Assembly: GCA_947494975.1 (NCBI GenBank)
Contig: CANLXA010000002.1
Span: 124,001-188,000, forward strand
Length of the DNA: 64,000 nucleotides
Direction of reading: 5' to 3'
From: an uncultured Roseicyclus sp.
GTDB lineage: Bacteria; Pseudomonadota; Alphaproteobacteria; Rhodobacterales; Rhodobacteraceae
Shown: one piece after another, positions 10,972 through 14,225 of the stretch
Layout of the letters: the number at the start of each line of letters is the position of its first letter
How positions within the stretch are numbered: position 1 is the first letter of the stretch
Made by a program: the position numbers and the translations under genes
Notes under the pieces: generated by a model
Database searches by the model: none
Told to the model about the DNA's origin: nothing
What the model saw: only the letters and a program-made list of their open reading frames with translations

Positions 10972-11361
10972 CTAACTCTCGTTGAGCAGATCGGTGCCGT
11001 AGGAATTATCGACCGTGCAGAGCCACCCGTGAGCCGTGTCCCGGGCGAAAACGTAGGTTGCGCGGCGGACAATCGGCTCTTTTGCCTCTCCGATGTGAAG
11101 GAGCGTTTCCATGATCACGAGGGCGGTGTCGCCGCCTTCGATCACCTGCGCTTTGCCTTGCGTGACAGACAGGGTGTTCCCGAAATGCCTGGCGATTGCC
11201 TCGAACGCGGTTCTGATCTGAGCCTTGCCTTTTGCGACCTGTCCGGGTTGTACGACCAGGGCGGCGTCTTCGGCATAGAACTCCATAAGGGCGTCAAAAT
11301 CCTCGGTCCCGATCGCTATATCGGCCTGTTTGATCAGTGTGAGAATCTCGTGTTCAAGCAT
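10972..11361 (-). CDS. SnoaL/NTF2-like (DUF4440-type) protein
   Basis: MLEHEILTLIKQADIAIGTEDFDALMEFYAEDAALVVQPG. Confidence 0.8.
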   Translation of the reverse strand: MLEHEILTLIKQADIAIGTEDFDALMEFYAEDAALVVQPGQVAKGKAQIRTAFEAIARHFGNTLSVTQGKAQVIEGGDTALVIMETLLHIGEAKEPIVRRATYVFARDTAHGWLCTVDNSYGTDLLNES

Positions 11362-11863
11362 TTGGAGTTCCTTTCTCAAGACGCGGGGCCAAGCCGAGGC
11401 TGAAGTGCTGCTTCGTTCCATGATTGCGAACGACGAAGAACCAGGTCCACCAGATCAGAAGTGCCTGCAGCGGTGCGCGGATCAGAAGATAAACTGGCCC
11501 CAGAACATGCCCGCCCATGCCGGTGTGATTTAACGCGGCATAAACATTGACCGGGAAGAAAGCGACCAGCACGCCGATGGCAAGCAGCCCAACCGTGCGT
11601 CGGCTGGCGGGATATGCGAGGCCGACGGCAATGGCGAGTTCCAGTAGGCCCGTTGCGAAGACGAGCAGCGTGGCAAAGGGAACAAGTGGTGGAAGCATTT
11701 TTGTCATCGCTTCGGTCTCGACAAAGTGGCCAATACCGAAGAATCCAAAGGCGAGTGCGATGCCCATTGTGCCGCCGAGGCGCGTTCTGCCAGTCCCGCC
11801 TCTGGCCCTTGCGACAAATAGCGGGGCGAGTAGCAGGCAGAGGATGATGAGTGGCGTTGTCAT
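11354..11863 (-). CDS. DoxX-like integral membrane protein
   Basis: 4 predicted TM; ATGLLELAIAVGLAYPASRRTVG. Confidence 0.7.
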   Translation of the reverse strand: MTTPLIILCLLLAPLFVARARGGTGRTRLGGTMGIALAFGFFGIGHFVETEAMTKMLPPLVPFATLLVFATGLLELAIAVGLAYPASRRTVGLLAIGVLVAFFPVNVYAALNHTGMGGHVLGPVYLLIRAPLQALLIWWTWFFVVRNHGTKQHFSLGLAPRLEKGTPNA

Positions 11864-11884: not shown

Positions 11885-12865
11885 TTACACGACGACGACA
11901 TTGCCGCGCTTGCGACCGGTTTCGACATAAGCGTGCGCTTCGACCAGATCGGAGAGCGGATAGGTGCGATCCATGACAGGCGAGAACTTGTTTTCGGCCA
12001 TGAGCGCCAGAACTTCTGACAGTTCTTCGCGATGCATCTCGGGTTTCAACATGCCCGCTGCGGCGAACCTGGCTTTTCTGCCTCCAATTACCCCGGTCAG
12101 GATCATGTCGCGCAACAGCGCCAGACCAAGGACCGGACACACATAACGCCCGTTCTCGGCAAGCGCGGGTTTCGCCGCGCCGAAGGACGCCACTCCAAGA
12201 GTGTCGAAAACAACGTCATAAGCGGCCCCGCGCTTTAGAGGATCTTCGGCGTTGTAGTCCACGACGTGGTCCACTCCGAGAGAGCGGAGCATCTCCGTGT
12301 TGCGCGCGCTCGCGCTGGCGGTCACCTTTGCACCGAGAGCCTTGGCGAATTGAACCGCCGCCGTCCCGAGGCTCCCGGACCCACCAAGGATCAGCACGTT
12401 TTCACCCGGCTGAACTTGCGCCACACGGGTCAGGAAGTGCCAGGATGTCATTGCGCCATCAAAGAGCGTAGCGGCTTCTTCGTAGGAAACAGTGGTAGGT
12501 TTGGTCAGAAGGCTGCCATCTTCGTCGACGCTGATATGCGTCGCGTTGGCACCAAACTGAAGGCCGGCTTCGCCAAAGACGGCGTCACCAATACGAAACT
12601 TCGTCACTTTGTCTCCGACGGCGACGACATCGCCCGAAAAGCAAGTCCCGGCCAACCCGGCGCGAGGGCGCTTCAGTCCAAGAAAAAGTCGGACGAACTT
12701 CGGTTGCCCGGCCCGCATCATACCGTCCGCACGGGACACCGCAGAGGCCCGCACGCGGACCAGAACCTGTGCTGCGGAGGGCGTCGGCACCGGCCGCGTG
12801 ACCGGAGTAAGGACGTCCGGTCCACCGTAGCGGCTGACGTCCCAGGCGTTGAGTGTTGTGTCCAT
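11885..12865 (-). CDS. Zn-less MDR/quinone oxidoreductase-type NAD(P)-dependent alcohol dehydrogenase
   Basis: VLVRVRASAVSRADGMMRAGQPKF, ENVLILGGSGSLGTAAVQFAKALGAKVTA. Confidence 0.9.
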   Translation of the reverse strand: MDTTLNAWDVSRYGGPDVLTPVTRPVPTPSAAQVLVRVRASAVSRADGMMRAGQPKFVRLFLGLKRPRAGLAGTCFSGDVVAVGDKVTKFRIGDAVFGEAGLQFGANATHISVDEDGSLLTKPTTVSYEEAATLFDGAMTSWHFLTRVAQVQPGENVLILGGSGSLGTAAVQFAKALGAKVTASASARNTEMLRSLGVDHVVDYNAEDPLKRGAAYDVVFDTLGVASFGAAKPALAENGRYVCPVLGLALLRDMILTGVIGGRKARFAAAGMLKPEMHREELSEVLALMAENKFSPVMDRTYPLSDLVEAHAYVETGRKRGNVVVV

Positions 12866-12869
12866 GACG

Positions 12870-12897
12870 ATCTCCTTCGTTGTACGAAGAAGGAGAT
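12870..12897 (-). promoter_or_regulatory. Inverted repeat that would sequester the Shine-Dalgarno of the alcohol dehydrogenase mRNA
   Basis: mRNA sense: ATCTCCTTC-TTCGTACAAC-GAAGGAGAT-CGTC-ATG. Confidence 0.6.
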
Positions 12898-12963
12898 ACA
12901 GGATAGGTTTCGATCCAATAATTGTCTATTGTAAACCAGATTGGTTCAAAAACGTTACGCTAG

Positions 12964-13845
12964 ATGGATTGGAAATCTCTCCCCGCGTTTCTCGCAGTTG
13001 CGCGATCTGGCTCGCTACGCGCTGGCGCAGAGCAAGTGGATGGCACCCATGCCACCGTGCGCCGCCAGATCGAAGGTCTGGAAGCGCAATTGGGTACAAC
13101 GCTTTTCCGCAGAAATGCCGGCGGTCTGAAATTGACGGCGTCGGGGCGGCGCCTGCTCCCTCAAGCTATCGAGGCGGAAGCTGCGCTCCTCAAAGGCTTC
13201 AACGCTGTGAAAGGACTGGATCGCGAGGCGTCGGGACAGATCCGATTGTCCGCCGATCCCCTGACGGCGCACTATCTGCTCGCGCCGGTTCTGGCGGACT
13301 TTGCCGCGCTTTACCCGGAAATCGAAATTGAGCTGAAGCTTTCCTACCTGCTGGATTCGATCGAGAAGGATGAGACGGACATTTCCATTCGTCATGTCCT
13401 CGAAGTTGAAGAAGATGCCGTTGGGCGGAAGCTTTTTCCACTGTCGCTGGGGGTGTTCGCGTCACGCAGTTATATCGATGCACAACTGCCGAATGCCGGG
13501 ACGAAAGGTAAGGGGCTGACCTGGATTGGCTACGGAGAGGTTCCCGAGTTGCAAACCATGATCGCTTCCTCCCCATTCTCGAAGGCACGCATTCGACACA
13601 TTGTCACTGACCCGCAAATGCATCTGCATCTGGCCCGGGCCGGAGCCGGAATGACATTCTTGTCCAATTGGGTTCCGACCGTGTTTCCCGAGTTGCAGCG
13701 CGTGCCCGGAACCGAGTTGGATCAGCGCCGCTCAACCTGGATCTTGCTGCACGGCGGCCTGCGTCGGATCCGGCGCGCACGGCTTTTGGTGGACTATCTG
13801 AGTGCAGCTCTACTGGAGCGACGGGCGGAATTCATTGGTCGGTGA
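12964..13845 (+). CDS. LysR family transcriptional regulator
   Basis: MDWKSLPAFLAVARSGSLRAGAEQVDGTHATVRRQIEGLEAQLGTTLFRR HTH. Confidence 0.92.
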   Translation: MDWKSLPAFLAVARSGSLRAGAEQVDGTHATVRRQIEGLEAQLGTTLFRRNAGGLKLTASGRRLLPQAIEAEAALLKGFNAVKGLDREASGQIRLSADPLTAHYLLAPVLADFAALYPEIEIELKLSYLLDSIEKDETDISIRHVLEVEEDAVGRKLFPLSLGVFASRSYIDAQLPNAGTKGKGLTWIGYGEVPELQTMIASSPFSKARIRHIVTDPQMHLHLARAGAGMTFLSNWVPTVFPELQRVPGTELDQRRSTWILLHGGLRRIRRARLLVDYLSAALLERRAEFIGR

Positions 13846-13853
13846 GGCGGATG

Positions 13854-14225
13854 TTACCAAACAATGGCAATCGCCAAGACCAGCATGGCCGTCATGAATG
13901 GTCCCCATAGTTTGCGCTCCGCAGGGGATGGCGTGATCCAATTCAGTACCGTCGAAGCGAAGACGACGGCGACTGCCGCCCAGGCTGTCCAGCGCGGCCA
14001 ATTCGGCCAGTTTCCGTTGGCGGATAGGATAGCCATGCCGACTGCCGCCAAGATCGCAATCGATAGCGCTGCGATGATCCGCCCGCGCAACGGCAGAGGT
14101 CCTTCGACCTGGCCGCCTTGTGTCACGCGTCCCCAATGGGCTCCAAGGACAAGAGCGACCTGAAATCCAATCACCGCAGTTATACCCAAGCAGAACAGAT
14201 AAGACATAGCGATCATGTTGGCCAT
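13854..14225 (-). CDS. Small integral membrane protein, hypothetical
   Basis: 123 aa, 4 hydrophobic segments. Confidence 0.65.
   Translation of the reverse strand: MANMIAMSYLFCLGITAVIGFQVALVLGAHWGRVTQGGQVEGPLPLRGRIIAALSIAILAAVGMAILSANGNWPNWPRWTAWAAVAVVFASTVLNWITPSPAERKLWGPFMTAMLVLAIAIVW

Follow-up and report, generated by a model that had tools for sequence, protein, structure and literature searches.

A hairpin in the leader of an alcohol dehydrogenase-like (ADH) gene of marine Rhodobacterales buries the gene's Shine-Dalgarno sequence (SD), and its two arms covary among orthologs from species to species. We consider it roughly an even bet (a probability of about 0.5) that this is a cis-acting RNA element with the ADH SD in its 3′ arm and the -10 and discriminator region of the ADH promoter beneath its 5′ arm, an arrangement that would tie translation to the transcription start controlled by a divergent LysR-family regulator. 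The placement of the hairpin atop the ADH promoter suggests that stray transcripts are silenced and the properly started message is translated. We put forward slightly more tentatively the broader idea that a promoter-gated lock on the ribosome binding site (RBS), of the type found at phage T4 gene e, guards a bacterial metabolic operon in many Rhodobacterales genera, with a covariation that has outlasted the turnover of the sequence itself.

In the window (the whole 64,000-nucleotide stretch of DNA that was analysed), the ADH and lysR genes are divergent and their starts are 98 bp apart (Table 1). The enzyme carries the Pfam assignments ADH_zinc_N_2/ADH_N and its PDB relatives are quinone oxidoreductase-type MDR enzymes; every NCBIfam model stays under its cut-off. 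The region 3′ of ADH (10972-11863) contains a weak DoxX-like membrane ORF and a second, SnoaL-like/SgcJ-EcaC ORF, and on Ruegeria and Yoonia plasmids an SgcJ/EcaC gene is also found 3′ of ADH with one other gene intervening. This suggests that ADH and the downstream SgcJ/EcaC gene form a conserved operon.

Table 1. Features of the LysR/ADH locus, ordered by window coordinate.
Feature	Position	Strand	Basis or remark
ADH-like gene, MDR-family zinc-type alcohol dehydrogenase / quinone-reductase-like	11885..12865	-	Pfam PF13602, PF00107, PF08240
ADH ATG start codon	12863..12865	-	start aligns in orthologs
Hairpin 3′ arm GAAGGAGAT, holds SD AAGGAG (12872-12877)	12870..12878	-	direct reading
Hairpin loop TTCGTACAAC, 10 nt	12879..12888	-	ortholog motif counts, alignment
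Predicted transcription start inside loop	12885..12886	-	counted from TA
Hairpin 5′ arm ATCTCCTTC, anti-SD strand	12889..12897	-	direct reading, top inverted repeat; conserved pairing
Proposed -10 of ADH promoter, TATCTC	12893..12898	-	TA = 12898/12897; overlaps 5′ arm
GGAT-N8-ATCC dyad, putative LysR activation site near -22	12901..12916	-	ortholog alignment
Proposed -35, TTATTG, 17-bp spacer	12916..12921	-	first T invariant, 36/36
GAACCAATCTGGTTT dyad, candidate main LysR site near -55	12933..12947	-	GAACC-N-GG type
Divergent LysR-family regulator gene	12964..13845	+	PF00126/PF03466 (HTH_1/LysR_substrate)
Neighbouring ORF, convergent with lysR and co-directional with ADH	13854..14225	-	possible read-through source

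On the minus strand from 12897 to 12863, the leader reads ATCTCCTTC TTCGTACAAC GAAGGAGAT CGTC ATG. A preliminary description of this DNA claimed a perfect 9-bp stem that buries the SD, and direct reading bears this out: positions 12889-12897 pair with 12870-12878, the hairpin ends 4 nt before the ATG, and the SD, AAGGAG at 12877-12872 and 6 nt ahead of the ATG, lies wholly inside the stem. The TTCGT/ACGAA extension proposed there is an alternative register that adds nothing to the 9-bp stem. The SD is therefore paired in a stable hairpin beside the start codon, which is the arrangement of an RBS-sequestering leader hairpin.

Several measures place this hairpin in its genomic context. A repeat search ranks it as the top inverted repeat, and the pattern CTCCTTC-N3..20-GAAGGAG occurs once in the 64 kb versus 0 expected. 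The shorter ATCTCC-N4..16-GGAGAT is present at five places in the 4.5-Mb genome, four of them besides the ADH hairpin. The local fold has a predicted energy of -12.4 kcal/mol (z -1.9; 8/200 shuffles equally good), and the 42 nt before the ADH ATG give a folding z of -2.7 (2/200 shuffles). Among 155 SD-bearing gene starts from 400 kb of the genome plus the window, an SD as fully paired (P >= 0.999) is seen at one and comparably stable SD pairing with P >= 0.95 at five. Within one genome, the ADH hairpin is unusual, not unique; its significance comes from the orthologs.

We compared 36 distinct Rhodobacterales upstream regions, drawn from whole genomes, GTDB contigs and plasmids, each with the LysR/ADH divergent pair; genus-level searches for further orthologs added just one. 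A LysR homolog 70-91% identical to that of the window adjoins ADH in 35/35 tested, and also in L135, an ortholog recovered with the covariance model described below. The regions divide into a close group (n=18; ADH 67-100% identity) and a distant group (n=18; ADH 54-61% identity). Members of the close group retain the stem, with compensating substitutions around a nearly invariant core (ATCTCC/GGAGAT); three of them have the variant stem ATCTCTC/GAGAGAT (L033, L037 and L044) and another forms a 12-bp stem that includes G-U pairs (L039). When the 17 distinct close orthologs were aligned (alignment A2), standard pairs filled 84% of pair cells versus 79% in column shuffles, and every slid register brought this figure down to 42-56%. 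Two-sided changes were present in 14 cells. None of 500 shuffles matched the paired-cell, two-sided-cell or covariation values, while the number of pairs with a two-sided change was unexceptional (115/500 shuffles).

In the distant group the sequence of the stem is mostly different from that of the window, and pairs such as CGTCTCTTG/CAGGAGACG (L097), GCTCCTCG/CGAGGAGC (L100), CCTCGTC/GACGAGG (L005) and CGTCCT/AGGACG (L098) take its place. These leaders were assessed with an alignment-free swap test, in which each 5′ half was joined either to its own 3′ half or to that of another species. For the distant group, the folds of own halves had an advantage of 2.9 kcal/mol over those of swapped halves (z -6.1, 0/20000); for the close group the advantage was 1.5 kcal/mol (z -3.7, 4/20000). 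When the test was slid along the intergenic region, the own-partner signal appeared at the hairpin only (z -7.1 at -44..-2), and non-overlapping windows elsewhere gave z between -2.8 and +2.4. The permutation is unweighted for relatedness, but these flat control windows were drawn from the same sequences. A clear SD-covering stem was not seen in about one third of the distant orthologs (L086, L092, L096, L101, L102 and L003), and the stem of L089 is weak.

These results have implications for what kind of object the hairpin is. The near invariance of the close-group core would be expected if the -10 (TATCTC) and the SD (GGAGAT) merely happened to be complementary in this lineage; however, the close group also shows two-sided changes, and the preference for own over swapped arms holds in distant orthologs with other sequences (0/20000), making coincidence highly improbable. 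That the hairpin is more than chance is well supported. The compensatory changes characteristic of a conserved RBS-sequestering pairing are present, and because the two arms co-evolve, an RNA that contains both is under selection in most, but not all, lineages. The preliminary description had treated a lack of conserved pairing in orthologs as grounds for abandoning its proposal; the pairing is conserved, with covariation, and this supports the masking of the SD by the hairpin.

The same description offered a second possibility, that the dyad is a DNA site for the divergent LysR. The dyad does lie in a divergent LysR intergenic region, where an operator for LysR or another dimeric regulator might be located, and a LysR-type operator should be conserved in sequence together with its regulator. 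Instead, the arms are wholly different among orthologs (for example ATCTCC/GGAGAT, CGTCTC/GAGACG, GCTCCTCG/CGAGGAGC and CCTCGTC/GACGAGG) while the LysR recognition region, THAT(V/L)RRQ(I/V)E, is conserved. In addition, the spacing between the arms ranges from 4 to 17 nt among clear-stem orthologs, G-T pairs are tolerated in the stem, and a separate dyad of GAACC-N-GG type is conserved where a LysR site is expected, lying in most orthologs some 80-95 nt ahead of the ATG. An operator function for the hairpin palindrome is thus very unlikely. In one ortholog (L095, G178), an in-frame stop interrupts lysR within the part encoding the DNA-binding region, while ADH retains an open frame; this regulator may be broken.

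RNA thermometers (ROSE, fourU and simple hairpins) resemble the ADH hairpin in that the SD is paired in a leader hairpin, and the preliminary description suggested that heat might melt the stem and free the SD. There is precedent in the roseobacters, where RNA thermometers exist upstream of small heat-shock genes (PMC3230580). Unlike a thermometer, however, the ADH hairpin is not predicted to melt at growth temperatures: the thermodynamic prediction for the window gives a probability of 0.00 that the SD is unpaired from 10 to 50 C, and predicted SD opening over this range is flat in nearly all orthologs. The stem is a perfect 9 bp, ADH is not a heat-shock gene, and an Rfam search (cmscan) for thermometers or riboswitches returned chance-level matches only, far under gathering scores. 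We therefore regard the thermometer as extremely improbable. That so strong an SD should stay shut at every temperature in the predictions is easiest to understand if normal mRNA is able to escape from the hairpin.

Such an escape would depend on where transcription starts, and the conserved columns around the hairpin bear on this. When all 36 sequences were anchored by eye on the TA at the hairpin's 5′ edge, the proposed -10 had T at -12 in 35/36, A at -11 in 36/36 and C at -7 in 32/36, with the TA columns favoured by the anchoring itself; an invariant T, not selected for by the anchoring, sits 23 nt upstream of the TA in 36/36, at -35. Because most alphaproteobacterial sigma-70 promoters are without T at -7 (PMC8407463), TANNNC is acceptable as a -10. 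The distant group has a Y/R step 12 nt downstream of the TA (C at -1 in 12/18, R at +1 in 14/18), and near the predicted start the close group has C at +1 in 14/18 and A/G at +2 in 18/18. Taken together, these columns look like an alphaproteobacterial -35/-10 promoter that would start within the loop. The proposed -35 is a poor one, and a consensus scan of the window prefers another promoter, TAGACA-17-TATCCT, whose start would fall within the 5′ arm and so shorten the hairpin; its TATCCT is not conserved as a -10 in the orthologs.

The loop itself is enriched in the motif (G)TCAA, which is found in 11/18 distant and 9/17 close sequences versus about 1.5 expected, and is conserved even in the stemless orthologs L096 and L102. 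Its complement is TTGAC, which is followed about 17 nt later by AT-rich sequence and may supply the divergent lysR promoter with its -35. We also considered the loop TCAA as a protein-binding signal and set this idea aside; the overlapping lysR -35 explains the motif equally well, and the motif is also present in orthologs that have no stem.

From this anatomy we propose how the hairpin might work. The LysR-activated promoter would start ADH transcription within the loop, and therefore the normal mRNA would be without the 5′ arm and its SD would be exposed. RNAs started further upstream, whether antisense through lysR, by read-through from the convergent neighbour or at spurious sites, would carry both arms, fold, and stay untranslated. 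The covarying arms would thus act only in RNA arriving from upstream, and translation of the ADH operon would be tied to initiation at the LysR-controlled promoter. Folding predictions for the window at 25 C fit this scheme, with a probability that the SD is unpaired of 0.00 in an upstream-started RNA versus 0.82 in a loop-started RNA, and the loop-started leader has less structure than most of its shuffles, 196/200 of which fold as well or better. In the distant group the effect is modest, the loop start lifting mean predicted SD access from 0.30 to 0.45 only. The preliminary description had also spoken of a translational switch; the masking of the SD stands, but the promoter anatomy suggests action on upstream-initiated transcripts and not a switch inside the normal mRNA.

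Possible sources of upstream RNA were considered among the neighbouring genes. In the window, the ORFs on the far side of lysR are oriented toward ADH, and a search for a terminator-like site between them and lysR found none. Across loci, the nearest ORF past lysR runs in the same direction as ADH in 21/33, a count that is not decisive for read-through, and across these 33 loci the strength of the hairpin is independent of the orientation of the gene beyond lysR.

A different possibility is that the whole hairpin is present in the normal mRNA, which would then start at or before the invariant TA, and that it strongly damps or gates ADH translation. It could do so at a fixed low setting or be opened by a protein, an sRNA or a metabolite, and it may also protect the 5′ end. 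The conserved, covarying stem is as expected for such a device, and a start at the TA would make the hairpin 5′-terminal, with 0-8 nt ahead of it. A factor that binds the loop, or one that acts in autoregulation, is conceivable, since E. coli QorA, which like ADH belongs to the broad MDR family, binds specific RNA (PMC10380284); autoregulation of ADH through RNA binding is possible, though unsupported. Against a gate in the normal mRNA, no conserved -10-like element lies at the needed distance and the TA itself behaves like one. Furthermore, nothing that could open the hairpin is apparent, the predictions keep it shut at all temperatures, and the overlapping lysR -35 can account for the conservation of the loop. 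We judge this alternative to be rather unlikely but worth keeping in mind, and favor a start within the loop.

As far as we have seen, the hairpin is a locus-specific device that accompanies the LysR/ADH unit, also where that unit sits on plasmids of Ruegeria and Yoonia. A covariance model (R1) run against 397 genomes of the family, Rhodobacteraceae, found the element before this gene alone, plus one more ortholog (L135); because R1 was built from close orthologs, diverged stems elsewhere would escape it. Five weaker R1 matches were rejected as regulon members, as none of them precedes a gene start that is convincing and set in the LysR/ADH arrangement; they look chance-like. On a plasmid of Yoonia sp. 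SS1-5 (L085), a recombinase and a transposase adjoin the LysR/ADH unit, consistent with its horizontal movement. A more remote locus (L103, G157), whose ADH is 47% identical, has a different 8-bp hairpin, GATCAAAC/GTTTGATC, before the ATG with the SD in its loop region, and its promoter sequence differs as well; this is possibly an independent solution. A search of the literature found no report of this hairpin element.

If the proposed scheme is correct, bacteria, and not phages alone, make translation depend on the site of transcription start by means of a promoter-overlapping hairpin, and divergent regulator/enzyme pairs can be insulated from read-through and antisense noise. More generally, an SD-masking hairpin seen in genomic DNA may be absent from the normal mRNA; because of this, thermometer or riboswitch predictions require a mapped 5′ end.

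The proposed logic is not without parallels. Insertion sequences of the IS10/IS50 type hide the RBS only in transcripts that enter from outside, and this protection against read-through is the same RBS hiding in outside-derived transcripts that we propose for ADH. Unlike IS10/IS50, the ADH locus contains no insertion sequence; the unit is the LysR/ADH gene pair, sometimes on plasmids. A second parallel is found in phage T4, where, at gene e, I-TevI and soc, a hairpin buries the RBS in upstream-started RNA while proximal transcripts escape and get translated; at gene e, long transcripts are repressed about 100-fold and the late promoters overlap the hairpin's 5′ strand (PMC3014915, PMC2988022). 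Under the proposed scheme the ADH hairpin would share this T4-type logic, with a proximal start and a translational repression that are both predicted. In contrast to the T4 elements, its carriers are bacterial genomes and plasmids, the gene behind it is a metabolic one controlled by a divergent LysR regulator, and the upstream RNA that it would silence is not a phage early transcript but would be read-through or antisense RNA.
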